From positions 62,001-126,000 of the forward strand of contig WFMF01000130.1 in the NCBI GenBank assembly GCA_011033025.1: DNA of 64,000 nt. Reading direction: 5' to 3'. The DNA comes from Beroe forskalii (lineage: Eukaryota; Ctenophora; Nuda; Beroida; Beroidae). A model generated the notes under the pieces. It did not search any database, had not been told where the DNA came from, and saw only the letters and a list, made by a program, of their open reading frames with translations. Both the position numbers and the translations under genes were made by a program. Of the stretch, positions 2,149-57,359 are shown piece after piece (within the stretch, counting starts at the first letter, position 1; the number at the start of each line of letters is the position of its first letter).

Positions 2149-2825
2149 GTAAGTCGTTGCTATTCTCGAAGTAAGACTGCAGCATTTTCATAAGCTGAAC
2201 TATTCTCAAAGAATTTCAGTGGGTTTATTGTACAACAAATACAATAATACATAAATTGAATTGGATATGTACAGTATGGTAACTAATGAATTAAGATATT
2301 ATTGAAAAGTACATGAAGTGAAGAGACTAAGTTTCTCTTAAGTATCAAGAAGCTGTGTTTCTTAAGAAATTTTAATGAGTTAAACATCTATCATAATCAT
2401 AAATCTGATGAGTTTATTCGTTGGAACACTACTGGAATCAGTAATCAAATTATCTGGTACGCCTTAAAATACTAATTTAAACTTCACATAATTACCGAAC
2501 CTCTTTTCGTAACTCAGATATGTTGACTCCTTTTCTTTCAAGTGCTCAAGTTCCTCAGGTTTCAGAGTCACTCCTTTCAGTGAGAGGTAATGTGTAAAAA
2601 TCTTCGAAGTCCCAACCTCTCTGCATCTCAGGTTCAAGGTTGCACGTGCAGATTAATTGTACACGCGTTCATTTCTGTTTAAAGCTGGTAAAATGAAATA
2701 TAAAGTTACCATACAACTGAGATTTACTTATGTCAATGCGTTAACAGCAATTTAGGCTGTACAGTTGGATAGCTCATAGTGTCGCGTAACTAATGTATTA
2801 TTTCTAAAATGATTGATAACATATT

Positions 2826-5800
2826 ATGATTATTCAAGATGGTTTTCCTCAGTATTTAGTTCAGGTGATGATTAAATTCATGCCCAAATGTCTTCCATCA
2901 TCCTTCCTGGAACCTTCCCAGTCTCTTCTCTGCCATTTCATACCCGTGAATGGAGTTAGGAGCAACTCTCTTACTTCAAAACGCTCTCTTATCCAAAATC
3001 ACTCCACCAGCCCTGGTGTTCTAGTGCTCAACGCTGGCAGCAGCTCCCTCAAATTCAGTCTTTTCGACAGAGTCAATGGTGACTATTCTGTTGCATTCAC
3101 TGGAACTGCGGAAGGTCAGCCAATCTTATGATTATAAGTTCCTTCTTGTGGTATTACTAATTGAATATACTGAACATCCGTCTCTTGCAGATGATATTAT
3201 TTTTATGGCCCAACGAATTGCCAACAATCTTTTCGGTATACAAAATAAGAATCGCTTTGCTTGAAAAATACTTGCAAATTTAACAAAACTCAGGTTTAAC
3301 GGTCACACAAGACGTGTCAGCGAGACTAAAGATCAAGTCCAGGTCACATGGAACTAACCAGTCAGAGCCTCTTTCTTCTGGTACTCACAGTGCTGCAATG
3401 GAAGCCATTGCTTGCTTCATAAAATCTAACTACCGGTGAATGATGAACAGTTACTTGAGCATTTCTATTAAATCCAGGAATTTCAAATTCAGCATGGACA
3501 TCAAATTTTAGCTAAGTTTCATCATAATTAATAATTGTATCGTTCCACTTTCTAATTTAATATTTCATATCCCAATTCACCAGCCCCATCAATTCATAAA
3601 TTTACCTACCACCACCCCATTTACTGACTCCAATGCATGATTGCAGGGGTGACATAGGGGCAGTAGGGCACAGGATAGTGCACGGCGGTACACTGTTCAC
3701 AGACAGCTGTCTCCTCACCCCAGACTCTCTTCTGAAGCTGTCTGCCTTAGACTCTCTGGCGCCCCTTCATAACCCCCACAACATGGCCGGGGTTCGGGCG
3801 GCAACCACAGCTTTTCCAGCAGCCCTCCAGGTTTAGCTTCAAGTTTAGTTTGTGTGGGCACAGTTACGGGAATAGGTTAATGAGGGTTCAAAAATCTCAT
3901 TTCAGCCCCGAAAATAGGGATTTTAAGGCTATTCCCCCTCAGGTAGGGGTATTTGACACGAGTTACCACTCTACTCTGCCCCCTCACGCCTACACATACC
4001 CTCTACCACGACCCCTTGCTGCCAAATACAGGAGGTACGGATTCCATGGTACGTCTCACAAGTTTGTGGTGGAGCAAGCTAGGAAGTACCTGGGAAAGGA
4101 GAGGATTAACGCCATATCCTTCCACTTGGGTGAGTTTATTGTGTCTTAATTGTGGTGACTTCCTCTCACAATTCAATGTTTATGCACAACATCACTGGTG
4201 GACACCAGAGCTTGGAAAATTCTCGATCCACAAACACCACTTTACAGTTTACTCTCACATCAGTCTTTTTCGAAGTAAATCCGAAGACGACTCTTTTATA
4301 GTCCCATCGCTCTGATGGCAATTGACAATAAACTCCAGTAACAACCTCTATATTCTTTTGACAACATCTGAGTCTGACAACAGTATCCTCTAACTCCATG
4401 AAACCAACCTGAGTATCTCATCCGAAGCCATGTCTTGAAATGTCGTTATCTTCAAGATCATCTTAAAATTGTCCACATTTTGTGCTAGATGCGCTGAGTT
4501 CATGATTCCGCCAAAGTGGATACAAATTGGATACACTTGGATACACTTGAGAAAATTTTCTCAACTTTTGAGAAAATGGTTTTTTGCGTGTTTTAAGGCC
4601 TGGAAATGTCTACAAATGGTTGGAACATAGTAGTATAGCTAATACGAGTTGCCCTAGATAGTTTTTAGGAGTCTTGGTCACTTTTGGGCCCTACGATGGG
4701 CGAAAAAGGCCCAAAAAGGCCGAATTTTAAAATTGCCCAAATTTCATTTCTAACGACTCAAATGTATTTGTAGACATCCTAGGAAACATTCTGTGTGGTT
4801 TTTAGACCAAAATTCGCTTAATTCCGCCCGTGAGGAGTTGTATCCACTTGAGAAAATGGACTTGAGAAAATGTGGATACACTTGAGAAAATGTTGAGAAA
4901 ATGGTTTTTTGCGTGTTTTAAGGCCTGGAAATGTCTACAAATGGTTGGAACATAGTAGTATAGCTAATACGAGTTGCCCTAGATAGTTTTTAGGAGTCTT
5001 GGTCACTTTTGGGCCCTACGATGGGCGAAAAAACAAAAGGCCGAATTTTAAAATTGCCCAAATTTCATTTCTAACGACTCAAATGTATTTGTAGACATCC
5101 TAGGAAACATTCTGTGTGGTTTTTAGACCAAAATTCGCTTATTTCCGCCCGTGAGGAGTTGTATCCACTTGAGAAAATGGACTTGAGAAAATGTGGATAC
5201 ACTTGAGAAAATGTTGAGAAAATGGTTTTTGCGTGTTTTAAGGCCTGGAAATGTCTACAAATGGTTGGAACATAGTAGTATAGCTAATACGAGTTGCCCT
5301 AGATAGATTTTAGGAGTCTTGGTCACTTTTGGGCCCTACGATGGGCGAAAAAGGCCCAAAAAGGCCCAAAAAGGCCGAATTTTAAAATTGCCCAAATTTC
5401 ATTTCTAACGACTCAAATGTATTTGTAGACATCCTACGAAACATTCTGTGTGGTTTTTAGACCAAAATTCGCTTATTTCCGCCCGTGAGGAGTTGTATCC
5501 ACTTGAGAAAATGGACTTGAGAAAATGTGGATACACTTGAGAAAATGTTGAGAAAATGGTTTTTTGCGTGTTTTAAGGCTTGGAAATGTCTACAGATGTC
5601 TAATACGAGTTGCCCTAGATAGTTTTTAGGAGTCTTGGTCAATTTTAAGACATTTCCGGGCCTTAAGACACGCAAAAAACCATTTTCTCAACATTTTCTC
5701 AAGTGTATCCACATTTTCTCAAGTCCATTTTCTCAAGTGGATACACCTCACGGGCGGAAATAAGCGAATTTTGTCTAAAACCACAGAATGTTTCCTAGGA

Positions 5801-8372
5801 TGTCTACAAATACAATTGAGTCGTTAGAAATGAAATTTGGGCAATTTTAAAATTCGGGCTTTTTAAGCCTTTTTCGCCCATCGTAGGGCCCAAAGGTGAC
5901 CAAGACTCTAAAAACTATCTAGGGCAACTCGTATTAGCTATACTACTATGTTCCAACCATTTGTAGACATTTCCAGGCCTTAAAAACACGCAAAAACCAT
6001 TTTCTCAACATTTTCTCAAGTGCGTATCCACATTTTCTCAAGTCCATTTTCTCAAGTGGATACAACTCCTCACGGGCGGAAATAAGCGAATTTTGGTCTA
6101 AAACCACACAGAATGTTTCCTAGGATGTCTACAAATACATTTGAGTCGTTAGAAATGAAATTTGGGCAATTTTAAAATTGGCCTTTTGGGCCTTTTTTCG
6201 CCCATCGTAGGGCCCAAAAGTGACCAAGACTCCTAAAAACTATCTAGGCAACTCGTATTAGCTATACTACTATGGTCCAACCATTTGTAGACATTTCCAG
6301 GCCTTAAAACACGCAAAAACCATTTTCTCAACATTTTCTCAAGTGTATCCACATTTTCTCAAGTCCATTTTTCTCAAGTGGATACAACTCCTCACGGGCG
6401 GAAATAAGCGAATTTTGGTCTAAAACCACAGAATGTTTCCTAGGATGTCTACAAATACAATTGAGTCGTTAGAAATGAAATTTGGGCAATTTTAAAATTC
6501 GGCCTTTTTGGGCCTTTTTCGCCCATCGTAGGGCCCAAAGGTGACCAAGACTCTTAAAAACTATCTAGAGATCTGGGGTAACTTGTATTGACTCCGCAGT
6601 CATGATTCACAATCACTTACAGTCACTTTCAAGGAATTGAGAAAATTTTCTCAACTGGATCCAGCTCAATCGCTTATAATGAGCGCGCGCGGATTTTCTC
6701 AATTTGTATCCATCTCGCGGAATCATCTACTGGATGCGCTGCCGCGACAACAATTTTGCTATTGAAAAGTTCATAACATTAACCTTTTTCACTGCGCGCC
6801 CTAATTCAAAGAAATATTTCTTTGAGTCCGATCGGTTGGGTTACGGTTCCGATTTAGACAAATTTCTAAATTTACATCTCCAAAATTCAACATACTATTC
6901 GGGTCCGGAGTTCATGATCGTTGGTGCACATTAAGGATGGTAAGGGCATTTAGATGGTCAATTTAGAGTACACTCTTTCAAATAAGGGCCGTTGTTTACA
7001 AGGTACCGTGGTTGATAAGGTACCGTCGTTACTTGTTAGCAATTTGCCGTTTTGATAAGGTATCGTTGTAAATAAGCTACCGTGGTTTATAAGTGAATGT
7101 GGTTAACAAGGTACCATGGTTAAATGTTGTGCATGTTTTTCAGGGAACGGGTGCAGTGCCACGTGTGTAAAGAATAACCTATCAGTGGACACCTCCATGG
7201 GCTTTACACCACTCGCAGGGTTACCCATGGGCTCAAGATGCGGCGATGTCGACCCTTCTATCATTCTCAAGCTAATTCAAGGTGAAATTTGCACTTATTA
7301 ACAACAATTGGATTTCTAAACCATATCTTGTTTCCCATTTTTGGTGCCCTCATTAACTTCCCAACAAGAAATGCATAATTTTCAACTTAAGAACTTTCAT
7401 CAGATGAAGGTATGAAAGTTGAAGAAGTCAGTGATATGCTTCACGCGGAATCAGGACTCTACGGCATATGCGGTGAGTTTACTGGCTGTTATCAAACGAG
7501 CTTAATATGAACTAAAAACAATTTCAAGATCTAACGATTTAATTATCAATTTAGTTATCAATGGAAATTTCAAATTCTTGATACGATGGGATCACGATTT
7601 GATTTCACACAGGTTCGTCTGACAGTGCCACAGTGGAGAAGGGCTGGTCAAATGGAGAACCGCAGTCCTCGCTAGCCTTCAACATATTCGCTTACCATGT
7701 CAAGAAATGCCTTGGTAAGTACTGTACGTGACTACTTTTAATTTATCTAATTAATTCTGTGCATGTTGCGAACCGTCCTGAAACACTGATAAATTAATAA
7801 CCAACTGACTGTCTCACTGAGTTATTGACATACTAAGTGACTGACAAGCTGGCTGATCGAACGGTTAACTGACTGAGTGACTAACTGAAATTATTATTGA
7901 CTGACTAGCTAACTGAACGGCTAGCTGACTCAACAAATTGACGTACTGACGGGCCATTTAACTGAGCAGCTTATTTACCGACCGACTTCCAAACTTACCA
8001 CCTACCTAACTGACTGAATTACCAACTGACCAGTGCAGCGACCTAACTGACAAACTACCTGACTCACTGACTGAGTGTTTTTTTTCGCCAGGAGCCTACT
8101 CTGCGGTCTTGAACCACTCTGTTGATTGTGTCATATTCACGGGCGGGGTGGGAGAGAACAGCACTGTTCTCCACAGGCTGGTCTGTGACGGTCTCATCCC
8201 TCTTTCTCACGACAATTTCTCACGGTCACGTGACATCTGTGACATCACTGCTGATGACGTCACTACTAGCGTTGCTAAGGATGTTGTCATGGAAACCGAA
8301 AGAACTAGAGTTTTGGTTGTTAAGACGAATGAAGAATTAGCTATTGCTGAGGAATGTTTAAAGTTTTTGTAG
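2826..8372 (+). CDS. ackA: Acetate kinase, eight exons
   Basis: Predicted exons: 2826-3114, 3294-3435, 3647-3830, 3943-4129, 7144-7281, 7404-7472, 7613-7714, 8092-8372. All are joined by GT-AG introns with matching phases and together encode about 463 aa ending in TAG. Acetate kinase converts acetate and ATP to acetyl phosphate and ADP. Family motifs are present in order: [13 protein letters not shown] (Asn69), GHRIVHGG (Arg153), [14 protein letters not shown] (Asp210), [15 protein letters not shown] (His266), [10 protein letters not shown] (Arg299), FTGGVGENS and TNEELAIA near the C-terminus. All expected catalytic and nucleotide-site residues are there, so it should be active. Bacterial enzymes are about 400 aa; the excess is an N-terminal extension of about 64 residues. 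Met15 (2868) is an alternative start. The introns and repeat-filled context argue against bacterial contamination. Confidence 0.93.
2868..3017 (+). other. N-terminal extension of acetate kinase, possible organelle targeting
   Basis: The about 50 residues from Met15 to the first acetate-kinase strand are rich in Ser, Lys, Arg and Leu and carry only one acidic residue, as mitochondrial presequences often do. This is composition-based inference; the first exon could also have a different true start. Confidence 0.4.
4511..6700. repeat. Inverted array of ~325 bp units inside an acetate kinase intron
   Basis: Forward units (anchor ttttaaggcctggaaatg) recur at about 4591, 4916, 5237 and, truncated, 5571. 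Their reverse complements follow from about 5647, 5972 and 6300, so the array turns over at about 5645. Both outer edges carry the palindrome ttgagaaaattttctcaa (around 4549 and 6638). Each arm is about 1 kb. Each unit contains several ACTTGAGAAAATG and GGATACA motifs and no coding frame. The transcript of this intron could fold into a long hairpin. Confidence 0.9.
6985..7125 (+). repeat. Degenerate short tandem repeat
   Basis: Several imperfect copies of a GATAAGGTACCGTGGTT-like unit precede acetate kinase exon 5. Confidence 0.55.
7780..8080 (+). repeat. ACTGA/TGAC-rich simple repeat in the last acetate kinase intron
   Basis: Low-complexity runs of CTGACTGA, GAGTGACTAACTGA and variants fill the intron between exons 7 and 8. 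There is no coding signal. Confidence 0.7.
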
Positions 8373-33900: not shown

Positions 33901-36900
33901 TTCTAAGAGGGGAGTGTTTTCGACAGAAACGAATCGCTGGATTGATGAAATGAGCAGAAAACAGTCTCCTAGCAGGAATATATATTGGCTGGAAAGAAGT
34001 GTGACCATGTTATCATTTCCCACATTGTTAACACAACACCTTCTCAGAGAATCGTGTGATAACATTTGTATGTTATAGCACTCGAGAGAGAACGTTTTGA
34101 TATAAAACCAGTATATATGGGAGGGAGAAAGGCGTGAATTTGCTTAAAATTATCGCTCACTGTCGTCTAGTTGTGCGTGTGAAGGTTTAAGGTAGCACCT
34201 GCATTATTCCAGAAAAGAAAGAAGCTGCTACTTTCACACCCGACACTCAGAAGAACTGATAATAAAGCCGAGTTTACACCAATTTACAGCTCCCAATTTA
34301 TCTGCTAATAGCCTGGTCATAATATGAGACTAAAGTCTTCTGTGTTTTGTCATTGGATTGCGGATGCTCGCTTCTGGGTCAGAAGCCTCAATCAGTTTCA
34401 TAACACCAAGATTGTGCTTGTTTTGTTTGGCGTTCATGACAAATACAGGCATTTTCGTGTATTCCCAACTCCCATCATCAAATGCAGTCTTGGAGGAGAA
34501 GAATACTGAAAACAGAGTTAGTTTGAGTGTTATCAGCAGACCAGTCTTATCCATCTCAATAAAACAGCCACGATTTCTCAAATGCAACCTGTTCTCTTCG
34601 TCGGCTGTTCTGAGGAAAAGGAAATCGTGTTAGCTTTCAGGAGAAAAGGGTTTACTGTGCGACGAAGTGGAGTGAGAATCACAGCTGAAAACCTTATAAG
34701 TTGATGTTAGAATGGGATGATAATGTGTGAAAAGCGAGCCTGTGTTCTTGGATAGAGCTTGTGTGAAAAGTGGGTTTGTGTTTTTGGAGAGAGCTTGTGC
34801 AATGTGCTAGTATCAAGGGGTACAACTCTCCATGGAAGATCTAGAATCGAACACTGGGGTGGATGCAACTTTCGAAAAGGTGCCATGATATTTTGATAAG
34901 CTCATGTTATCAGGTGTCCGGTTTGCCTTTTTGTCCTCCATCCCTCGACCCTATGTTTCAACCCCCTTGTTCACCCCTTTCCCCTCCTGTAATACCTCAC
35001 TTGTCACTTTCTCCCCCCCCCCCTGAAACACCCCACTATCCCCTCTTCATAACCCCACTCTCCCCTTGTAACACCCCATATCCCCTTTCAGGCGGATGTT
35101 CCCCACTATCAAAGTGTCGGTGTTCGGGCTGGAGCCACACACCAAGTACCATATGCTCCTGGACATAGCCCCACTCGACGACAAGAGATACAAATACGCT
35201 TACCACAGGTACGGGTCGATTTGACATCATTTGAAACTAGTATCATATTATTGAGAATAGATTATTTGCTCTTAGAAATCAATCTGCATTCTTCGCTTTG
35301 AATATTGAATGATTGTATGTGACACTGACGAGAATTCCTCAGACTTGAAATTTATGAAAATACTCAGCGTAGCCATAAAATCGCTTCTTTTTAATGGACA
35401 ATTTTGTTCGAAGCGATTCAGCTTCTCTATAATATTTTTGGATAATTTTCTAAACTCGATATAATTATGCAAATTTTAGTCATTTTAATAGACAAGTTAG
35501 GAGACATACTGGCTAGACATAAAATATTCACTTATATGATAAACATGAGTCATATGGAATCTTATAGCTTAGAGCTTACAACTTATGGTACTTCATAGTC
35601 CTCCTACTTCTGTGATGCCCTAAAAACGAACCAAAATTGGCGAATTGGAGACATTTCATTCGAACTTGACAGAATATTTGACTTGAAACCCCGTTTTTTT
35701 TTCGAAACACCTTAGCGCCTGGCACGCCCATTGACATATAGTCATATAACACCGCTGGTTTTTCACACTATGTGTAACATGTTTTTACATGAAGCCGTTT
35801 AATAACCTGTTTATATGTTTAAAACATAGGGAAAGTGTCCAAAGAAGAACCCCCTAGAGCAGGCTGCATATTTGTAATAATATAACAAATCATAATGCCA
35901 CCTGTAACTATAATCACAGGCTAGCCTATAGTAGAGATTCACATCGGAAATGTCTCAGGTAAGGTTTGTACAGGCGCTGTGCTGCTGTTTATTATAGTTG
36001 AGGGGGTGTAAATTAGTCATATATTTGAGGGATTTCGGAAGTTGCTTTAATACTATGCAAACACCCTCAGTCCCTAGAATATAGATAGATTCCATTTTGG
36101 AGACTTAAGGTGCTACTGAAAGTTATTTGTACTATCGATTTGAGGGACTGAGGGGATTTTCAGATATTTAGGGTGCTGCTGAAAGTGCAAATGGATGCTC
36201 ATGTTTGTGCTTCGTGTCCTCCCAGAAAATGTACCTAAAGTTTAACGTTTTTATCGCATAAATAACAATTTTTCAATCACTTTCATAGTTCATACCATTC
36301 AAATACTAAATTGACCAGTTTCAGTTTTCCAAATTCTATAAATTGTTCAACTTCCACCCGTAGAAACGTATACTTTGTTGAAGTCTCTCTGGCAAGCTGT
36401 ATGTTCTGAAAGAGGCTGCTGATTCTCAGTCAAGACGATGATAAAATGTTGTCTCGTAGTTTTTCACCGAACTTTGTCACTGCTCGGTGAAAATGTTATA
36501 TCCGCAGGCTTTAACTGAAAATGTGAGTTTTAAAAAGATGATTTATTGAGTACATCAAAACGAAATATTTCGCTTGTTTTACATTCTACATTCTCCATCA
36601 TTTAGTCTGATTGGAGTAGAGACCAGCTCTCAAGGTTAGCTGTACCAAGGCATGACTTGTCCCTTTCTGTTATGTAGATATTTTAGAAAAAATGCCTGTA
36701 ATTTCAATAGACACTTGTAAGACTTTAAGCTTTTAAGTTATACATGTCTAAAAGCTGTTTTATGTTGTGTACAAGGCTCCGATAGACTGAGTTATGATTT
36801 TAGATATAATATTTTTACATAGCATAATATAAACCCTGGTCCGTGGATAGGTTTGAGAGCTCGTTTAGAAAACAAGAGATAGGGTTGTACAGCAAGGGCA

Positions 36901-39900
36901 TTGGAGTGAGAGTTCCTATTTATAAACCTGATCTGAAGCTATTTGTTTGAGCCACATTCCTTTCATCCATTCAAAAGTTAAAAAGTTTAAAATTCTGTGT
37001 TTTGGCTCAGCCCTTCATCTTCATCTTGAAACTCACTGCCATTCTGAGTCACTGTCATTCCTGAAAGCTGACTGACTGTCAGTCTAACTGAATGTATCAT
37101 GTTGATTGGCTGATTGATTACCAGAATTGATTCCTTCTGCGGGGGTTGTCAGAATTCAGACTATTTCTGAGGGTTCTACTGTACAAACTGTCCAAAGTGT
37201 CTGATTTTGTGTTTAATATAGTGAGTTGTTTTAATTTTTAAAGAAGTTTCCATGTCTTATAATCCTTAATAACGCTCAGTTCATTAATAAGGTCTTTCTA
37301 ACATACCACTTTACATGTGAGTTGATTAAAAAGAAACATATTAGTGTTCGGTGATGACAGTTTAGACTCCCGAGCTTCAAGACGCTGAACATCAACCTTA
37401 GTCATCAGACCCTCAAACATTTTCATCGGTTGTACCTGAAAAATAGGCGGAGTGACGTCACGAAACCACCATACTAAACCATGGAAATCACTCATGTCTC
37501 AACCGCCTGTTGTTCGCACGCGCCCTCTTCATACATCAAAAGTTAGAATTTTCAAGCATCCCGCTAAAGTGTTTTTAAAGTGTTTTAGTCCGCTAGGTAT
37601 TGACAGGTCCTTGACGCGGTGTTTGGGGAAGTGTCACAAATATTTATTAGAATTTACAGCTGATATAAACGCTGGACACGTGACCCTCCACTTCATAGGA
37701 TAAAGCTCACTGTGCTGATGCGTTATATCGCAGATAAACAGTTGATAAAAAGGAGATGATGGGATCTAGATATGTATATGTGTCGATAATGAGGAGGAAG
37801 TGTGTTCGCTCCATTTTATCTCGTCTCCTCGACGGCACTGCCCTGGAACTGCTTGCCTGTAAGTGCTGTTGAAAGAGGGGGTAGAGGAGGAGGAGGAGGG
37901 AAGCAGAAAAAGCAGTCGGTATATGGCATTTCATGCATTTCTCTTTGAATTTACACGGGTTCTTTGGTATACCGCTATATAGGAGAACTCTATATATTCT
38001 CGTGTTTTAGTTTCCACTAGTTCTGCCTGATTTGTCTCTCGCGAATGCACCTGGCTGAAGCCCTACGAAGGTCGAGAAATTTCCACTATTTTAAGGTTGA
38101 AGTCCACAGTTGGGAGTGATATATCGAGGTTTCAGCCTCGCTTCAGACCATTGTCTCCATTGGATCGCTGAATTGCTAACAAGCGCCGAAATGGAATTCA
38201 CTGAGCTTTCAGATTAGGAATATGTTATAAGCAAAGTTTATTTTATATTTGCATAAAACCCTCGCTGTTTTACGGGCTTATATGGCTGATAAAGATATTA
38301 ATAAAGAGAGGAATTCCGAAGAATTCTTACTAGCGTCAGCTGCACATGTTTCTACTTGCTAGTTACAGTATAAAATATTCATTCTTCACCGGATATTCTC
38401 CCACTTTTTCTCCGAATCTTAATCCCAAAAGCGTCGGAGATGGCCAAAAATAGTAACTCTCGACTTCCAGCAAATATAGTGTTACTTCGCAAATCTTATA
38501 ACTGACGCCCTCACCGATTATTCACTGATTCAAGAGATTCTCTTGTTCTGATGGCAAATGGATGTTCAGATGTTTTGTCAGCTGCCTTTCTGGCTGATGT
38601 TATCGAATTCTTGGGCATAAAGAAGCCCTTATCAGGATCTGATGTTGTGAATGGCTAGGGATTACGCCAAAAGTCTGAGTAAGGAGGGGTTAGACATCGT
38701 AGATCTTGGAATGAAATTTGATGTTGAGCGACTGTTAATGTAGCAAATCTTGGGATTGACAAAGGTTTCAGCGATGGAGATAACGTATTAAGACAATGCA
38801 CCTTTCGATTTTGACGAACTCTGTTCGAAGTCATAATAATCTCGCTCGATTAAATTTGGTAAGCAAAGTTCCGATTAAAGGATTAACATTTGTTATCGGC
38901 ACTGGTCGTCACCTCAAATTCTTTGTAATATTTAATCACATAGAATGCTGTCTCAATGTGTTTTACCGCATATTTGTATTTTGCTCATCTTTCAACGTCA
39001 TACTGGCCACTCCATCCATTTGCTTTACTAACAGGAATTTAATCCTAAATCGCCCAAGCAAATCGCCGCTAACTTACAACTCTTTAACCTCAAGTCACCC
39101 AAGCAAATCTCCTCACCAAACATTGACAATCCCGAACATTATAAATCACATTTCCACCACTGCCTCCTGAATTCTGGAATGTTGAATTAGTGCCGTGGTT
39201 TACACGGTCTGTAACAGTGGTGGTGCCTCTCAGTCTTGTTTAAATGCTCCCCCATTCTTCCCTCCCCTCTCCTAACCAGCACAACCAATTTTCTGTCAAC
39301 AACGCACCATTCTAACTCATGATAATGACGTCACCCAATTCCTGAGTCCTGTGATTGGTTCTCTGTCCATTGTTATAGGGATTCGATGGGGTGTCTTCCA
39401 GACGTTAGGTAACACTGATAGTAATGTGCCACTGAAATAGACTTGATGGGTCATGTCGGAGTACAGAATGTGTCAGGGGTTGTCTGAATCTCATCTCAGA
39501 AGAGGAGTTACCAAGTGTTTTATCAGCTGGGAAGGAGAAGAAACTATTAACTGTTTGAGATAGTTGAACAATAAACAGGCTGTCATTTATCATATGATAT
39601 TCGAAAATAACGTATTTGGGATTTGGGATCACTGCCAGAGTAGGGCTTGGTTAATAAGTTTCATTTGGGGTATAGGTAACTCTTTGTTTGACATATGTGC
39701 CAATGAAGCACTTATTATGGCGATGTCATGCGACTGACTTGTCCTAAATTTCAAATGAGTCATCAGCTCAAAAATGCGACTTCTTGTCAAGGAAATACCC
39801 CAGGTGTCATATATTTGAACAGAAACCAACCATTACGTAATGGCTTTGAACAATCCTTATTAAGCTTCAATCGTTATATTGATCTGACAAAAACCAAAGC

Positions 39901-42900
39901 TTGATGGATCACAAATGACTAGTACTGACCATTCGAATTGTAGCAGCGTAACAGGAAAACAAACATCTATTCTGATACTATGACATGACTTGGAGCAATA
40001 AGAATAAGAAAACCTCAACTGTACAACGACACCAACTCCATCAGCTACGCCGTCTATAAATACCCGTGCTTTGCTCCACATGCAGCACTATTCTGTCAAA
40101 AATATAATAAAACAATAAACGGTGGACTTCACATAAGCCCGGGTTTGGATAACGGACAAGTATCTGACTGACAAGAGTTACGTAACACACCATAGCTTAG
40201 AGCTGCGAATTGGTGACGTTTCCGTGCCTTGTTTTCACAAGCGACAACCCTGCATTTTATCCCTGATATGTCAAGGAGTTCCTACCAATAATCGGGGTTT
40301 CCAATTCCCCTGCCTACTTGATTATCGGACGATTACCTTGCACAATTCTGGAGACTCCAGGACACAAAAACAGCTCTGCAATATTCCAGCGCGCGCGTTA
40401 TAGTGTGCGCGTGTCAGGGACATGTCAGAGTTTCCGAAAGGTACACGTCAGATTGCAGTGTTTCCGGTAGGCAGGTAAAGGTACCTGTCAGGTACAAAAG
40501 GTACCTGTCCGATGTGACAAGGGTTCGTGATCGCAATTATATTCGTGAGGGAGTGGGCGGCGGGGTAGGACCTTCCGTATATATAAAGCTGACTCCGCCG
40601 AGTTTTATTTTCAGTTTGCCTTTGCTGCTGTTGGGTTTTTGTGCTCCAAATCATCTCGGTTATTCCTCCATTTCAATCCTGTTAAATTTTACCCTTTTCA
40701 TAAAGGGGAAATGTCTGAATGCCATCTTCCTCCTCCCCTGAGAGCAGTTTTCATAATCTTTCTCCAGAAATATTCACCAAGACCACAGATAACTTCCACT
40801 GTGTTTTCATTGCTCAAACTTTACTATTGTATCTTGCTAAATGTAGAATGTCTGGAGCGAGGAATTTTAGCAGCAGCGCCCGCTTAGTAAAATACAGAAA
40901 TGGAAAATACAGAATTATTATACGAATCTCCAGAAATGCCGAAATTATGTTTGTTTTTCAGTGACATCCCAGCCGTAGCAGAGCTGTCTTGATATTATAT
41001 AACAGAGAGCTTTGCATAAAATTCTGAAGTTTTCGAAGGGAATTCTGAATTTTAATGAATTCTAGCAGATTAAATATAACATTGCTGTCATGGTTTGTGT
41101 CATAGGTTGTTATCACGGTACAGAATTCGGTTTATTTTCAGAACAGAAATTCAGTTCTTCTGAGCTGTCATACTCTCGTACTCAAAATTCGAACTGACCA
41201 TCAGTAATCACGGAAAGTAGCCGTCGGCTTCAATCTCGTTATCTCTTATTAGCCCTCTGAAATCCCCCAATTCACAATCATCCAACTATGTAACTATGAA
41301 ACCCCTGCTCCTCATATTCCCATTCTAAGTCCCCCGTCCGTTTTCCCCTTTCTAACCCCTCTCTTCTCCCCCCAGTTCCCTCCCCTTCTGTTCCCCCTTT
41401 CTAACCCCTCTCTCCTCCCCTCAGTTTCCCCTCTAACCCCTCTCTACCCCCTCAGTTCCCTCTCTAACCCCTCTCTCCTCCCCTCAGTTCGCGGTGGACG
41501 GTGGCTGGGAAAGGGGACCCCCCAGTGCCAGGTCGGAACTACGTGCACCCTGACTCCCCAGCCTCCGGCGCTCATTGGATGAAACAGACAGTCAGCTTCG
41601 ACAAAGTCAAGCTCACGAATAATGACATGGATAAGAACGGACATGTAAGTCTCAACGACAATCTCAAGATTTTCCATAGCTTCTTATTATTCTGTCGTAG
41701 TGTCGTATCAGTTATTTAGTTTAAACTTCTATCCATTGTAATCTAAGTCTCTTCGCATTTTTAGACGCCAATTTCACTGCTAATGAGTTTGTTTCACCTC
41801 GTCACAGCTTTTATAACACTTTTCTTTCACTTTCACTCTGCTCTCTACAGAATTCCTGGACTTTATTTTAAATGGTCTAATTGATAATCATGAAAATTTA
41901 ATTCAGCATTTTACATGGTTTAATGTGATCCTTATAGCATAACAAAAACTTGTGGTGAGTATGGGCGTGTAAATTTCTGTTCAGTTAATTGGATAAACTA
42001 ATTTGTGCTGGAAAAGCACGTGCACCTTTCCGTATTTAGACATTATGTTTCGACTGTTCGTGTTTAGTTTCATGTTGTGCTGTAAAATACGTGTTTCTCG
42101 TTTTAGAACACCTCGACTAATTATGGTCTCTTAATAGTTAACACACTGTAATAAGGCTTTTGAACTGTTCGTAATAATTAATAGTTAAAAACGAATTAAA
42201 CTATGCATTTCAAGTTTCGACAATTACGAATCTTCAGCGTTCTAACCAGTACACTCAGACACCAGCGCACTCTTAGACCAGTGTACTCTGAAACCAGTGC
42301 ACTCTGATCTGACACCAGTGTACTCTGATCTGACACCAGTCCACTCTGACACCAGCGCACTCTTAGACCAGCGCACTCTTAGACCAGTACACTGCAACAC
42401 CAGCGCACTCTAATAGTAATACAAACACACCCTGAGTCTGATACCACATAAGTGCACTCAACGACCAGTACACTCTGACTCTTTGACACTGGAGAGCACT
42501 CTGACACCAGTGCACTCTAACACTACGTCATTCTGGAATATGACTCGTGTGCTTTGACAGCAGGGCACTCTCACGAGTTTACTCTAACACCATTACACTC
42601 TAACACCAGTGCATTCTGATACCAGCGCACTCTGAGCCTGACGCCCTGACAAGTGACACCAGTAAATTCTAATTACAGTGACACCATTAATTGCCCTCTT
42701 GACACCATTCACTCTGGCACTAGTGCCTTCTGTCAGCAGTGTACTCGGGCACCATCCAACTGTGGCTCCAGTTCACTTCACCAATGTCCAATCCACTCCG
42801 AGAGCAATGCACTCTGACACCAGTGCATTGAGCATCTCCACACTCCAACACCAGTTCACTCTGGACCCACATGGAAATTACACTGGCTATAGTGATCCAG

Positions 42901-45900
42901 TCAAAACAAATTGAATTGACTGTTGAAACTGTTCATTTTGTCGCATGAAGCATCTGTTTTTTTAAATTTTTCAGCTTGACGAATCAAATGATATTAATCA
43001 ATGTCATAATTATGCGGTTGAAAAGTGGGATGTAGCACCAAGACTGTAATTATAATACAATTAGCCTCGCTGTATCGCTAGCGTACTGTTGTTGATATTG
43101 ATATGCAGCGCAAGGTGCTGTATTGCTGCAGAAAACGGAATCTTTGGGGGCTCTAATTAGGGTGATCTAATTAGGCACACGCCGCAAGATATACATAGGC
43201 GTGATCCACTAGTGATCTGCTACTATTTTAAGCAAAGTTGTTTTTTTCGTGTCATGCACCTTTAAGAACAGAAAATTCAGCTCATCTGAGCTGTCATACC
43301 CTCGAACTCGTGGTTTGAACTGACCATCAGTAATCACGGGAAGTAGCCGTCGGCTTTAATCTCGTTATCTCTTATTAGCCCTCTCAAATCCCTTAATTCA
43401 CAATCATCCTATAACTATAAACCCCCTGCTTCTCACATCCCCATTCTAAGTCCCCTCTCCGTTTTCCCTTTGTAACCCTCTCTCCTCCCCTCAGTTCCCT
43501 CTCTTTTTCCCCCTTTCTAACCCCCCTCTCTCCTCAGTTCCCCTTTCTAACCCCTCTCTATCCCCTCAACTACCCCCTCTAACCCCTCTCTCCTCCCCTC
43601 AGCTCCCCTTAGTCCCCTTTCTAACCTCTCTCTCTCCCCTCAGTTCCCGATGGACGGTGGCTGGGAAAGGAGACCCTCCAGTGCCAGGTCGGAACTACGT
43701 GCACCCTGACTCCCCTGCCTCCGGCGCTCATTGGATGAAACAGACCGTCAGCTTCGACAAAGTCAAGCTCACGAACAATGACATGGATAAGAACGGACAT
43801 GTAAGTCTCAACGATATTCACAAGATTTTCGATAGTTTCTTATTACTCTGTTGTATTAGTTATATCGTTTAAACTTCAATCCCTTGAGATGTTAGTCTCG
43901 CCTGTATTTTAAGACGCCAATTTTATTGCTAATGAGTTTGTTTCACCTCGTCACAGTTTTATGTTTATTGCACTTTTCTCTCACTTTCACTTTGCACTCT
44001 TACTTCACTTTCCTGGACTTCATTCGTCTTGGTATAATGATATATCCTTCAAAAACACATCAAAATCCGAGTCTTAGATTAAAGTTACGGTTTCCATTTT
44101 AGATACTACGGCAGCTGCTTCAACATAAGACCCTCCGCTGACATGATAAAATTACAGTGTAAAATGAGTCGCGTCAATCTAGTAATAAGTAATTATGACA
44201 CCACGATTCTGTGAGAAACCTATGAGGTTTTGTTCGTGTGACTCGAGCCTCTTTTATAATTAACCTGAACAACACTTGGACTCAATGCCACGGAAGGAAT
44301 TAGATTTGTTGCGCGTGGCGGCCTCCCGAGTGATTTCCAATTAACAATGTTAATTCCATATTAACCACATTAATTTGTGTGAGAAAGCAATTAACGTAAA
44401 ACTAAAGTTATATTGGCTGAATCTGATGGTATATTCGCCAAATGTTTGACTGAGAAGTAGTTGCAATAACTTAGTAAATTCTTGGAAATATATGTCTTAT
44501 ATTTTCACACATTTTAGAATGTTAAATTTAATAAAACAGTATTTCGTCCGTGTCGCGAATGAATAAAGAAATTGAAAACGGTTTCGAATATATTAATAAT
44601 AATTTTACGAATTACAAGTTTTGTAATATATCTACATTGCCAGGTCTTCAGCGCATATTCTCTTCAAAGCTTGTTACAACTTCTGAGACTGTACTAATGA
44701 ACTTCAGCCTGATTCCGGAATTACCAATGATTTCATGTTACGAATTGCAACTTCTGAACCAACTGAGAAGGGTCAATTAACACTCCAAATCCTGTTGATG
44801 TGTCTAGGTGTTCAGACGTCTTAAACTCTATATATTTTCCATATACTCCCCCTCTCTCTCCCTTGTGCGCGGTACGATGATAAATTGTTAAACTGTACGC
44901 TTTGTACAGGTTCTTCCACTCCACTTCAACATAATAAAATATATCCTCTGTTAAATTAAATTTATTTATCTCCCCTCCAATTCCCGCTCATCTCTATGAT
45001 TATCATATATGAATGAATGCAAAAGCGATAAATTTCGTGTTTAAATAATGCGCGGCTGCGCGCCAAGTCACTTGCAGCAAGAGTCACGTTCAAAATCAAA
45101 TTTAAACCTCCCCCTTTCTCTCTCCTGCTCCTGTCAAGAGAGAGAAATAATTTTAAAATATTTCCCAGAGTTTAAACACACCCGCATCTCTCGCTGAGTA
45201 TGTATCTTTGAGGAATATAAGGGGGAGTATAACTATATTATATGGGATATTATTCTCACGCACCTGTCCTCTTTAAACAAACCCGAGCTGTGCTCTCACG
45301 TTATACGTTGTTCACAGCTTACAGTTTGGCTTTTAACTAACCAATTACAAATTATACTGTCGGTATGTAGTTCAACTACTCAGTAGGTGATAATGCAGTA
45401 ATGGCCATGTCAACAATTACTGAATTATAACTTTTCTAACTTCTTCATGTTCTATACCGGCTTCCATCGGAACTTATAAGCAGTGTTTCATCCTTCCCCG
45501 TCCAAGTCAGGCTTTTAAGTTTCAGTTATAATCCCAGAATTCCTTTACTTTTCATCTGGAACCATTTCAGTTTCTCCTTCATATTATTTGGTCTTTCTTG
45601 AGCTTTGATCACCATTTTCACGCCCATCATTTGTTAGCATCTTCCTGTTTTATATTCACACTTGAATCCTCTCATACTGCAACACCTCAGGATATGTAAA
45701 TCAAAATGTTTATCAATTAACCATACTTCCACTGACCAATTCAATTTTTAACCCTCTCTCCCCGCCCTTTCTTCAGATTTTCCTCAACTCTAACCCCGCC
45801 CTTTCTCAGATCGTTCTGAACTCGATGCACCGCTACCAGCCGCGGATCCACATAATGGTGGCCCAGGGACAGCACAAACCCGTGTCCATAAACGACGGCC

Positions 45901-48900
45901 CCGTGAAGACCTTCGTCTTTGAGGAAACCCAGTTCACTGCAGTCACAGCCTACCAGAATCAACAGGTAATAGAGTGTGTATGTGCGTTATAGACGTGGAT
46001 TTAATTCGATTACCAGCCAAGATAAAATGTCAATTTAGTACCTTGTTAACCATTAAATTCCTAATTGCGAGGACCGTTTTGATAAAATAATGCAGTCTCC
46101 GCCGCGCTGCGAATGGGTTCGTAATTTGATTTTCGTGGGAGAGAGCTGTGGGTATGTCCGCGCGAAAAATAGGCGGTTTGAAGTGACGTCATTTTCATAG
46201 AACAAGCTATGAAGTGATGAAGTTTGACCGCCCATTTTTCGCGCGCGCAGGGTATAGAAGGGTGTTTAGTAAGACACACAAAACACATAAAATTACTGTT
46301 ACAGATTACACGACTGAAGATAGAGAGCAACCCGTTCGCTAAAGGTTTCAGAGATGCCAGGATGCAACACAGGAATATAAATATGACTCATAATTCCTGT
46401 ACCGAGTCAATCTAATTAGTCAGGTCAATAATATACCGAGTTGTACTAGTGTACTCAGTATATTACAGCCGGCAATGTGAGAAATAGGTGGTTCTGAGTG
46501 GTGTCATTATTTTGATTCTCTGCGCTGAATTGAGTACTTCGATCCGCCTATTTTCTGCATTCTGGAATGAGTGATGTAATTCGTTCCTGCAAGCGGAACA
46601 GCCCTTGTCTGCCAACAATCTAGACACTCCGAACATTACATGTCGCTTTCTCGTGTCTGGCGTGTTTTAAACGCACTCAATTAGTGAACTAGATGAGTTT
46701 TGTTCCAATGTGAATCGGTCGCATCAAAAGCAGAATACTTTCAAACTTTCAAAACTCTAGAATGAATTTATCAAACTCGGTTCCTTAGAATAATTTAACA
46801 AAAATATTGAATATTTTAATTTTATTAAGGTTCCAATTCACGGGGGAGGGCTGTAATTCTCCTTAAATTTTCTGTAAGTCACGTGATCCATAATTTACTA
46901 AATTCCATTTTGAAGGATAATAACGTAAATCATGAACTTTCGTCTACCCGAATCTAGACTCTCAGAAAATCGCCGAATATGCTCTACAAAGTCACTCAGA
47001 TCAACATCATCTAACCAATGACAATGCTTCATTCCATCATCTGACCAATGACAATGATTCATTCCACCACCAGTAATATCACGTGACTTATGATGCAACA
47101 CAGGAATTCTAACCCGGTGCTGTGTCGGGAGGAGATGAATCTGCTGCTGCAGTCCTACGGGGAGAATCCTGCTTGCAGCAGGGTGCCCACCAACCCCTAC
47201 TCCCACGCTCTCACCTCCACTAGTGAGTACAGATTTAACAGTAGAACAGTGGAGGTTGATTTCAGATTTCCTTTCACTAATTAGCAAGGAATGAAAATTT
47301 TCCTAAATTTGGGCGGGACCGGGGCCAATTTCATGACTTTGGATGATATAGATAAGTTGATGACACCAAACAGTATGATACTGATAGTACTCTGCCCTCA
47401 ATTCTTTTTCCTCATAACATTTGTTAATTGTTTCGCGATGGCACCTCTACCTCACCTACTCCATGCTCTTAGAAAGCATGTTTAAACTTCAATAAAACCC
47501 AGCCAGGAACTGTGAAAGTGATAAATATCCGCAGTTTCTCCTTCTCTTTTCTCTCCCATCCTTGCGGTAAAACTATGTGTTGATTGCCCGAGGTTATCAC
47601 CTCTGCGGCTGGGTCAAGTGAAAACGTCTATCACCTTGCTATGGTGATATGGTAACACCTAACACGCACGTTTTAGAACACTGTTAAAATTCTCCCATTA
47701 TCATGGTCTGAGGTGTGGATTCCACAACTTGTAGACTATAGTGTGAAATTCGCACCACCATCGCTTGTACTGTGCAAAAAGTAGGCAGTGAAATGTCACC
47801 AACGCACCATTTTAACTCATGATAATGATGTCACTCTCGGTAAGCCTGGTGTTTCTACACGGTTCCTAGCACTTCGGGAATTATATTTTAGTGTTTGTAG
47901 CTGGTTTAACCTGATAATAGGCCGCTACAGTGTAAAGAAGCTGATGAAATTGGGCAGTCGTCGCTCTAAACTCGATTCGTTCAATGCCGCTTGGGTACAT
48001 AGCACTCTCAATTCAAACACAAGGATTTCCCTCCTTGCTTGGTTACATATCACTCTCAATTCAAACATAAGAATTTCCCTCCTTGCATGAGTTCCATGGC
48101 TTCAAATGCCCCCACACTTCCTCTTAACAATCTATCAGTATGACCCTCTCCTTTCTTGGGATTTTGTACTTATCACTCCGTATTGCACACTTTCTCCGCC
48201 TTCTAAATCTTCTTCCTCCATACCCACTCCTCCCCCCCTCCTCCTACTCCTCTCCTATAACCCTCTCCTCCCTTTCAGCGAGCAGTGGCGGACTCCTCCG
48301 CTACCCGACGGATCTGATAAACAGCGCGGGCTACTTCCACTCCCCCATCAACCCGGGTACCTTCCCGCACGGCACCTTCCCGCAGATAGTTACCAGTGAG
48401 ACTACTCCCGGGGATGCCTCCCCGGGCCCTGCTACTGCCCCCTTCCCTTACGATCCTACCTACCCTGCCGTCTACCAGGTGGGTGATTACTATAGTGTAA
48501 CATGGTAACATGTTCATAGTACCATGGTAACATGGGTGTGTTACCATGGCTACTGCCCCCTTCCCTTACGATCCTACCTACCCTGCCGTCTACCAGGTGG
48601 GTGGTTACTATAGTGCAACATGGTAACATGCTCACAGTACCATGGTAATATGAACAAGTTACCATGGTAACATGAACAAGTGAACACGTAACCATAGTAA
48701 CGTGAATCAGTTACCATGGCAACATGTTATTGTTACTATGGTGTGTGTTCCTGGTACTATTTTTGTGTGTTCATGCTACAAATGCCATGGTTTATGGTTA
48801 CGACCAACGTGTTGCCATTCTTGAAACCATTAACCATGTGTTAGTGGTACTAACAGCACTGAGAGCCTAGTTAATCAATCACATTCACAGTAAAGCAATA

Positions 48901-54156: not shown

Positions 54157-54730
54157 ATGATTCCCTCCCTACAACAAGAGATCATCTCCATCACTGACAC
54201 TGAGGAACACGCCAGGGACTTCCTGTTCCGGAGAGGGATCCTGAAGAACACTCTCCCCTGCTCTTCCTGCAACGCACCGATGGACCTCGTCTCTTGTGCC
54301 GCCTCCAAATCCCCTGACTTGAAGATATGGCGCTGCTCTTGAAGATATGGCGCTGCTCTCCGAACATCAGATCGGAGAGTGTTCTCTACGGCTTCAGGCT
54401 CTCCATGCAGCAGTTCCTCACCCTCATCTTCTACTTCAGCATCAAGTGCATGACGAACATCGCCATCTCACAGCTGGTTGGGTTGTCGGAGAACACAGTC
54501 TGTGACTGGAGGATCTACCTTCACACCAAAGTTGCAGACTGGCTTGTCATCAATTCCACTCCCCTTGGAGGTCCCGGAGTGGTTGTCGAGATGGACGAGG
54601 CTAAATTCGGGAAAATGAAGTACAACAAGGGAGCATACCGGGAGGGACAGTGGGTTCTTGGAGCAGTGGACAGGAATACCAACCAGTGCTTCCTCCTCAT
54701 CTGCCCTAACAACAGTCGGGATGCTGCGAG
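54157..54730 (+). pseudogene. Broken Merlin transposase (copy A)
   Basis: Nearly identical to the first 190 codons of the intact gene at 58853. A 20 bp tandem repeat (ttgaagatatggcgctgctc) and loss of the bases encoding the second CxxC pair (CSPCRKF) break the frame at about 54340. The rest is open to about 54728, where homology ends after the first catalytic Asp. The second Asp and the Glu of the DDE triad are gone, so it cannot be active. Confidence 0.9.
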
Positions 54731-55206
54731 TATGCGACTTTTTACCCCCCGACTTTTTATCCCCCGACCTTTTACCACCCTAAGAATCATGTGCGACTTT
54801 TTACCCCCCGTCTTTTTATCCCCCATTGGTATAGAAATGGAAAGTGTTTAATAAGCAATTCCAATTCCACGAAGTGTGTCAGCTTGAGGGAGAGTGTACT
54901 CTGAGACCAGCTTCTGGATGTGTTCGTTCTTCTTCTCTCTGGTAGAGTGGGCGAAGGAATTTCCTCCCTGGATGTCGTGTATGGTAGCTGTTGTGTGTCT
55001 ACTCATGCCTCTCCAAGGACTCCAGAGAGTTTCCAGAATGAGGGATGCTGATAGCTGATGGGGCTGTTGATGGAGTGGTGGGATGCTGTAAGGTAGTCCT
55101 GGTGGATCCCTGAGCATCTCTGTCGTAGACATTCCACATCACGAGAGGGAACATAGGAGTCCGATCCAAGTTGATTCGAAGTAGTGCCAGTGGAGGATGG
55201 GGAGCA
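54729..55206. other. Foreign sequence inside Merlin A
   Basis: Not found in element B. It starts with direct repeats of CTTTTTACCCCCCGA and TTTTTATCCCCC. A minus-strand frame (55132-54848) includes REKKNEHIQKLVSEYTLPQA and is protein-like, so this may be a captured gene fragment; its source is unknown. Confidence 0.55.
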
Positions 55207-55323: not shown

Positions 55324-56238
55324 TTATTGTAGAGTTTGAATTTGAATCAGTTATTGATGTGAGTAAAGCAGTTTTATAGGTAGTTTTGTTGATATATACA
55401 TGTATTAATTAATATCCGATGAAACCTTTGATAATTATTATTCGATCATTCTTCAATGTTTATGAGCCCCTTTTATTGAGTAGATAGATAGTGGAATTCC
55501 ATTACCTGTTCATAGACGTCCACTAACTCCTAATAGACGTCTATTACCGAGATAGTGGACTTCCATTAAGAGTTAGTAGACGTCTATTAAGTGTTAATAG
55601 ACGTCTACTATCGAGATAGTAGACGTCTATTAAGTGTGTCGGGCAACTTGGATACTGCCGGCTTTTGTAGTGGCTTTCGGGCATATTTCTTCTATGCTTG
55701 ATTGCAATGTGATGTTGTTTCAAGCTTCTATTCTGATGATATTCCTGGCATCTGCATCTAGAACGGTGATGGGCCAAATTCCATCAGCAGGTTTGATTGT
55801 TTGATCTTGCTCATGGTCTTGAATAGTCACGCACAATTAAAGAATTATTTAGATTGTTATGTTTACAGCAAAGAATAAGATCTTTGTAGAACCTGTCACC
55901 TTGTTGAACAATGAATGAGCTTCATTCCTTGCCTCTTATAAAGCTTTAAAGCTCAATTGATATTGGACTGTATGTCATAGAATTTCAAATAAACATTTAC
56001 CACGCCAAAATTAATAACCACGCCAACATTAACCACGCCAAATATTACATAGGGGGGAATAACTCAAATCTTTAAATGATAAAAACCAAGCAGTCGGGGT
56101 ACCATTTGAATAATCATAATTTCCTTCCTGATGTAAAATTCTCAAAATACTAAAATAATCAAGTGAGACGGTAATGATTCAAATAAGCCATACTTGAAAA
56201 TTGAAAAAAATGCTGATTTAGTGATCTACTGAACTCAG

Positions 56239-56726
56239 GCACTAAAGAGCGGTTAGCTGACTTGAATCTGGTCGAGGGAATGTTAGAACCATCAACCTCC
56301 ATGAGTCCAGGAACTATCTTTGAGTTGGAGCTTCTTTTCAATGGCAACTTTAACTCGCTATGTACTGCAACCTTGGATTTAATTGTATCAGAGCAAAATG
56401 GTCTTTACCGTGTTCAATTCAAAGTGAGAGACGGGAGACATTACAATGTAATTCTCCAAAATACTGAGGTGGAAGGCAAATGGCAGAAAAAGGAATTGAG
56501 TGACATGCATATCACATTCGGATTAAATAGATATATAGCTGTTGTTCAGATAACAGCAAGTGATTATATTTTGAAATTTAATGATCAATTTGTGAGTTCA
56601 TTATCAGTGAATGTTGAGAAAATGCAACCAATATTCCGGTATGTTCGATTGAGCAGCGAAGGATCATGTCTTTCATTTGACTTGGACTTGCCACGTTTTC
56701 CTAGCAAAACAATTCTTTCAACCCAA
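56239..56726 (+). CDS. Galectin-like domain exon, copy 2
   Basis: Same structure as the exon at 1660-2148, with the tcag acceptor and gtaagt donor kept. Few residues differ up to the SCLSFDLD strand; after that, small indels put the last about 16 residues in a different frame, which stays open (LPRFPSKTILSTQ to the donor). The conserved Trp and Glu (GKWQKKE) are present. Whether the divergent tail is functional is unknown. Confidence 0.58.
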
Positions 56727-57359
56727 GTAAGTCGTTGCTATTCTCGAAGTAAGACTGCAGCATTTTCATAAGCTGAACTATTCTCAAAGAATTTCAGTGG
56801 GTTTATTGTACAACAAATACAATACATAAATTGAATTGGATATGTACAGTATGGTAACTAAGGAATTAAGATATTATTGAAAAAGTACATGAAGTGAAGA
56901 GACTAAGTTTCTCTTGATATCAAGAAGCTGTGTTTCTTAAGAAATTTTAATGAGTTAAACATCTATCATAATCATAAATCTGATGAGTTTATTCGTTGGA
57001 ACACTACTGGAATCAGTAATCAAATTATCTGGTACGCCTTAAAATACTAATTTAAACTTCACATAATTCACCGAACCTCTTTTCGTGACTCAGATATGTT
57101 GACTCCTTTTCTTTCAAGTGCTCAAGATCCTCAGGTGTCAGAGTCACTCCTTTCAGTGAGAGGTAATGTGTAAAAATCTTCGAGGTAATGTACTAGTGTG
57201 TAAAAATCTTCGAAGTCCCAACCTCTCTGCATCACAGGTTCAAGGTTGCACGTGCAGATTAATTGCAAGCACGTTCATTTCTGTTTAAAGCTGGTAAAAT
57301 GAAATATAAAGTTACCATACAACTGAGATTTATTTATGTCAATGGTTAACAGCAATTTA

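Follow-up and report, generated by a model that had tools for sequence, protein, structure and literature searches.

Why would a T-box gene carry the same internal coding exon twice, with seven nucleotides changed and not a single residue? The question is raised by a window of 64,000 nucleotides (nt) from the ctenophore Beroe forskalii, located at C171:62001-126000 of a genome assembly of 216 Mb in 1,134 contigs; "window" here means this whole stretch, and positions are counted within it unless another contig is named. The gene encodes a T-box domain (PF00907, 265.9 bits) and, ranked by sequence scores and not by a tree, matches TBX1 best among 14 PDB sequences (281 bits, followed by TBX5 with 251 bits), and on these scores we class it as a Tbx1-like T-box gene. 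Its exon 4 is present as two copies, 4a and 4b, with a transposon lying between them. On balance we consider it probable that 4a and 4b are two diverged alleles of one exon that became joined, be it artificially during assembly or through a genuine rearrangement, and we infer that this joining was recent.

Exon 3 (35092..35208; all parts of the gene and of its duplication lie on the plus strand) has an open spliced reading that ends in phase 2, and is followed by exon 4a (41488..41644), exon 4b (43644..43800) and exon 5 (45810..45965), all four being placed by their T-box match and by the spliced reading. Exons 4a and 4b are both 157 nt long and identical at 150/157 positions, and the seven differences, at exon positions 4, 7, 28, 34, 73, 103 and 133, are all synonymous, leaving one and the same peptide. 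Both exons end in CAT followed by the donor GTAAGT, and both are directly preceded by CTCCCCTCAG. Upstream of each lies an array of four units of the form TAAC, pyrimidines and CAG, similar to 3' splice sites, the last unit being the presumed acceptor of the exon (41345..41487 for 4a, 43464..43643 for 4b); the arrays resemble 3' splice sites in series, and any of their AGs may be the one used. Splicing in silico gave open frames and the same protein for 3-4a-5 and 3-4b-5, an early stop for 3-4a-4b-5 and a stop after HRSF for 3-5; the frame forbids inclusion of both exons or of neither. The preliminary description of the locus had reported two protein-identical exons with kept splice signals and a frameshift upon joint inclusion, and alignment and in-silico splicing bear out both statements. 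No doubled exon was seen elsewhere in the genome's T-box matches (17 matches on 6 contigs, 24/24 candidates scored), a point in favour of joined alleles. As a side observation, an intronless T-box domain lies in a single open frame at G000:C179:171559-172107, covering model positions 4-182 of 182.

The duplication extends beyond the exon itself. Copy A of the duplicated unit (41136..41867) comprises the end of intron 3, exon 4a and the start of the following intron, and shows 81.8% identity including gaps to copy B (43262..44024), which was delimited by its alignment to copy A. This alignment pairs 41136-41867 with 43261-44024, and under looser scoring 41137-41882 with 43261-44038 at E=9e-173, and therefore is not due to chance. 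Among alignment columns without gaps, intron positions outside the pyrimidine array show 66 mismatches in 434 (15.2%; 23/204 upstream and 43/230 downstream), compared with 26/140 within that array and 7/157 in the exon. According to the method of Nei-Gojobori the exon pair has a nonsynonymous divergence (dN) of 0 and a synonymous divergence (dS) of 0.235: about 121 nonsynonymous sites hold 0 changes where ~18 are expected (Fisher P=4e-8), while the synonymous sites (7/34.7) and the introns (66/434) have diverged alike (P=0.46). Thus, the exon has been conserved for nothing beyond its protein, and recent gene conversion of the exon is rejected, as its synonymous sites have diverged as much as the introns. 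It had been stated earlier that the flanking introns drifted more than the exons, which holds against the whole exon (7/157 versus 66/434, Fisher P=0.0002) but not against its synonymous sites; the equality of intron and synonymous divergence, named beforehand together with gene conversion as an argument against a maintained pair, is indeed found, whereas the conversion is not. With one copy free of constraint throughout, the probability of 0 nonsynonymous changes would be 1e-4, rising to 0.01 for the last half of the time since the split, 0.05 for the last third and 0.4 for the last tenth. Both copies were therefore held to the same protein, under purifying selection, for most of this time, and a dead exon as one of the two copies is rejected (P ~1e-4).

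This constraint, lasting almost to the present (0/121, dS 0.235), is as expected of single-copy alleles. The same pattern arises from two alleles when each chromosome has a single exon 4, and the constraint therefore does not show selection for two copies in one gene; from the purifying selection claimed earlier, the part concerning the protein of both copies stands (0 changes against 18 expected), but the part in which selection keeps two copies within one gene does not follow. We propose that 4a and 4b would have diverged on separate haplotypes, each as the sole exon 4 of its own chromosome, and that their tandem placement would have come about only recently. The window would then contain, in this order, the last part of intron 3 with exon 4 of a transposon-free haplotype, the transposon that the other haplotype carries upstream of its exon 4, and finally this transposon-bearing haplotype's own exon 4, with the remainder of the gene behind it. 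Joined alleles would account for proteins that do not differ, for synonymous sites and introns that diverged to the same extent, for splice signals intact in both copies and for the youth of the element between them. Taken separately, a joining made in assembly is quite possible, if short of probable, and would leave a normal gene with one exon 4 and ordinary splicing, and a recent real rearrangement between the haplotypes is rather unlikely.

The space between the duplicated units is occupied by one transposon (41872..43261, without assigned strand), of which the preliminary description makes no mention, apparently a non-autonomous DNA transposon inserting at TTAA, which contains a minisatellite of ~16-nt spacing and is recognisable from position 41883. 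With the best 40 of 610 candidates scored, its family comprises at least 65 matching genome pieces including that of the window; 39 copies were fetched and 32 of them examined with their flanks, leaving out L013, L017, L018, L020, L027, L036 and L044, whose ends were not placed. The exact left terminal repeat TTAAAGGTGCATGACGC is found in 29/32 other copies and the right inverse repeat, tested as GCACCTTTAA, in 30/32, while the copy in the window has an intact right end and a left terminal repeat that is missing or replaced. A TTAA on the right (43262..43265, plus strand) corresponds to TTCA in copy A according to the alignment, and a TTAA on the left (41868..41871, plus strand) may be a target-site copy or may be due to chance. 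One family member could be compared with its empty site, as contig C60 carries an element between two TTAA where contig C232 has a single TTAA without element; the element is therefore TTAA-inserting, with insertion differences inside the assembly. A preference for TTAA targets is linked to piggyBac, and with the target duplication seen for this one family member the element is a candidate TTAA-specific, piggyBac-like non-autonomous transposon. Concerning its age, the part 42245-43265 differs from the nearest relatives (L028-L030) at 17-20 positions in ~980 (2%) and the last 387 bp differ from the nearest relatives at 4 positions (29 copies compared there), and the transposon without its first part is accordingly younger than the separation of the two exons by a factor of 7.5 to 8.8 with even rates, or of 3.7 to 4.4 if all differences are charged to the copy in the window. 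The ages (17-20/980 for most of the transposon versus 66/434) disfavour a single old event that produced both the duplication and the insertion on one haplotype. At the left end (41883-42062, the first ~180 bp) scrambled patches alternate with near-perfect matches to close relatives, and a mosaic of an old left and a young right transposon copy was set aside because the differences are packed into few scrambled stretches with near-perfect matches between them.

Whether the assembly retains second alleles at all can be judged from the same filled and empty site. To the left and right of the insertion C60 (14 kb) and C232 are collinear, with 96/1984 substitutions (4.8%) and many indels on the left side, the tandem repeat L038:331-803 being left out, and with search identities of 92-94% over three long pieces on the right side. 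C60 has the appearance of a second haplotype left behind in the assembly, a segmental duplication being the alternative, and from this pair it follows that the assembly probably keeps some strongly differing second alleles and that the transposon family is polymorphic. Such a pair was found for 1/6 contigs probed (14-87 kb), as pieces of C888, C694, C31, C1090 and C879 led to repeats, gene clusters or no match and to no haplotigs. In the assemblies studied in PMC9516828 diverged haplotypes are described as the main source of false duplications, chiefly haplotypes more diverged than the rest, and gaps as a mark of them. For certain animals, PMC8270832 quotes neutral diversity values between 8 and 20%. 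Ascertainment would help as well, by favouring unusually diverged haplotypes among false duplications (PMC9516828).

Several observations weigh against two joined alleles. The introns of the two copies differ three times as much as C60 and C232 do (15.2% versus 4.8%, Fisher P=1.5e-12), and C60 and C232 are themselves only likely to be alleles. The window contains 0 N, although gaps are written as N in this assembly, as a gap of 100 N at L037 demonstrates. No second copy was found for 37300-41130 (best 40 of 46 candidates), for 44100-47900 (best 40 of 96) or for the exon elsewhere (best 40 of 63), and a second haplotype of the Tbx1-like gene itself, as judged by sequence match, is absent from the candidates scored. 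The left junction of the transposon offers no repeat overlap that an assembler would readily bridge. In addition, the youth of the transposon rests on the part outside its first 360 bp, which differ from L028-L030 at 43-52 positions in ~354 (12-15%), and as the duplicated stretch holds ~six TTAA sites, a transposon arriving afterwards would hit the boundary of an existing duplication by a coincidence of about one in six, which is no marvel. Next to the exon searches we also observed a short dispersed repeat at 41655-41733, just after exon 4a, where 37/41 genome matches of the exon search fall.

These points lead to the best surviving rival, an old and genuine tandem duplication in which both exons have been kept working and exactly one is used per transcript, by regulated or redundant choice, whereas transcripts with both exons or neither would be degraded because of their early stop; the transposon would have inserted later at a TTAA beside the junction. 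We regard such an old pair as possible but doubtful. It would agree with 0 nonsynonymous changes at 15% intron divergence, with the intact acceptors and donors, with the frame logic, with copies three times as diverged as the one pair of likely alleles that was measured and with a window free of N. The TTAA on both sides of the transposon together with a TTYATT likeness of the unit ends, noticed by eye, would fit a duplication that preceded the insertion, and the junction being about one in six TTAA sites makes this order no great coincidence. What speaks against it is that the peptides are identical, with no evident gain from keeping both, and that no device for an exclusive choice could be seen. 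The intron between 4a and 4b has 1,999 nt and 96 AG dinucleotides, which disfavours exclusion through splice-site crowding or through a branch point placed far away; both donors read GTAAGT, which, judged by the U12 splice-site consensus, disfavours an incompatibility of U2 and U12 splicing. In order to find a docking site shared by both copies we scanned intron 3 (35209-41135), the transposon and intron 4 (44040-45809) for pairing with four intron blocks, using 200 shuffles, and found none above the shuffles, since each of the 12 block-by-region scores was reached by 22 to 198/200 of them. For block up2 of copy B, paired with intron 3, no more than 1/200 shuffles attained the score, which is not striking among 24 single scores, and in a smaller scan with 6 shuffles 3/32 scores exceeded all their own shuffles where 4-5 are expected by chance. 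The window also gave no Rfam match at gathering scores.

With splice sites alike and strong, the default outcome would be inclusion of both exons and loss of function, and if nonsense-mediated decay (NMD) alone had to guard against such default splicing, most transcripts would be lost to it. That no exclusion device was seen makes a long-kept pair less likely, though still possible. The regulated or redundant exon choice suggested in the preliminary description therefore finds no counterpart in intron length, donors or pairing, while its NMD switch is a prediction from the frame logic. Our literature search found no work joining Tbx1, exon duplication, alternative splicing and T-box, a statement that we confine to this search. 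If the pair were truly old, exon choice could act only on dose and not on protein, and the dose of vertebrate Tbx1 matters. That a Tbx1-type regulator keeps two old, protein-identical exons and sets its dose by exclusive choice across a 2-kb intron, with NMD removing the errors, appears somewhat more doubtful still.

The joined alleles could also be real, which leads to the next explanation: a recent transposon-linked exchange between homologous chromosomes might have placed the transposon-free allele before the transposon-bearing one, through hybrid-end insertion, broken-end joining or template switching at the transposon, and the resulting tandem allele may be rare or harmful. This we consider unlikely, although the mostly young transposon between the units is in agreement with it, as are the lost left terminal repeat and the patch-scrambled first ~180 bp, which could have been left by faulty repair. 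In maize, alternative transposition of class II elements is also known to generate tandem duplications (PMC3744419). However, the left junction shows no clean signature of transposition: when 41863-41882 was aligned as a decayed terminal repeat or as a continuation of the duplicated unit, neither alignment beat shuffled letters (P=0.49 and 0.58). Furthermore, copy A has TTCA and not TTAA at the matching place, and 0/32 other copies of the family possess repeated flanks flush on both sides at at least 80% identity, some flank repeat being present in 6/32 (L014, L031, L032, L033, L040 and L041). As to the kind of these repeats, that of L040 (768 bp, 94%) is flush on one side only, that of L031 (449 bp, 84%) lies near one side only and that of L014 (211 bp, 68%) lies near both ends. 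Finally, one copy of an old duplication might now be silent and owe its conservation to chance or to a recent gene conversion. Splicing control would be unnecessary here if one exon were always skipped, but this reading is highly improbable given a P of 1e-4 for 0 nonsynonymous changes with one copy free throughout, synonymous sites as diverged as the introns and thus no recent conversion, and two intact sets of splice signals.

If 4a and 4b are joined alleles, the locus holds a warning. Two alleles can be expected to look just like a tandem pair of exons that encode one protein and have diverged normally at synonymous sites, and the purifying selection seen in comparing them is no sign of a second function.

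The window holds further features apart from the T-box gene. Pieces of an acetate kinase gene (PF00871) lie in separate frames at 2820-8372, near the animal T-box gene, two of them (3751-4149 and 8010-8372) above the family cut-off and one (2820-3131) just below it. A frame of 308 amino acids at 58820-59746 matches transposases of the ISXO2/IS1595 type (PF12762, 70.9 bits), and a shorter frame at 54318-54851 falls within a 92% repeat of it. A near-identical frame of ~180 amino acids occurs twice, at 1638-2174 and 56217-56771, within a 1.7-kb repeat of 96% identity, and the tested stretch of this frame matched no Pfam family. A dispersed repeat of 41 bp with dozens of genome matches is present at 39294-39334 and 47794-47834.

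Several known systems resemble this locus in part. The mutually exclusive tandem exons 3/Ab of U2AF1 (PMC5224494) and 4a/4b of OGDH (PMC7969005) are likewise homologous neighbouring exons, and transcripts including both duplicated exons fall to NMD in PMC5224494, as is predicted here; in contrast to these pairs, the peptides are identical in the Tbx1-like gene and the exons are known from genomic sequence alone. The branch points of the OGDH pair lie below a threshold of ~50 nt from the donor (PMC7969005), whereas such crowding is not expected in the present intron of 1,999 nt with 96 AG. The model of competing RNA structures formed from one duplicated stem arm (PMC6071210) needs a duplicated unit that includes flanking intron, as is the case here, but the shared docking site did not rise above the shuffles. 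In Drosophila hydra, tandem first exons adjoin the transposon DINE-1 (PMC9013439), which is comparable in combining duplicated exons with an adjoining non-autonomous transposon, although alternative first exons are concerned there and an internal coding exon here. Duplications by alternative transposition of Ac ends (PMC3744419) share the class II transposon at the junction of a direct duplication; here, however, one transposon end is damaged and no target-site signature links duplication to transposition. From heterotype false duplication, in which both alleles are assembled as paralogs (PMC9516828), the locus differs in having no N gap between the copies and in copies that diverged beyond the one measured allele pair (15.2% versus 4.8%). 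It shares with it two allele-like gene parts within a single contig, and elsewhere the assembly includes a contig that is likely to be a second haplotype; false exon duplications on one scaffold are reported in PMC9516828 as well.

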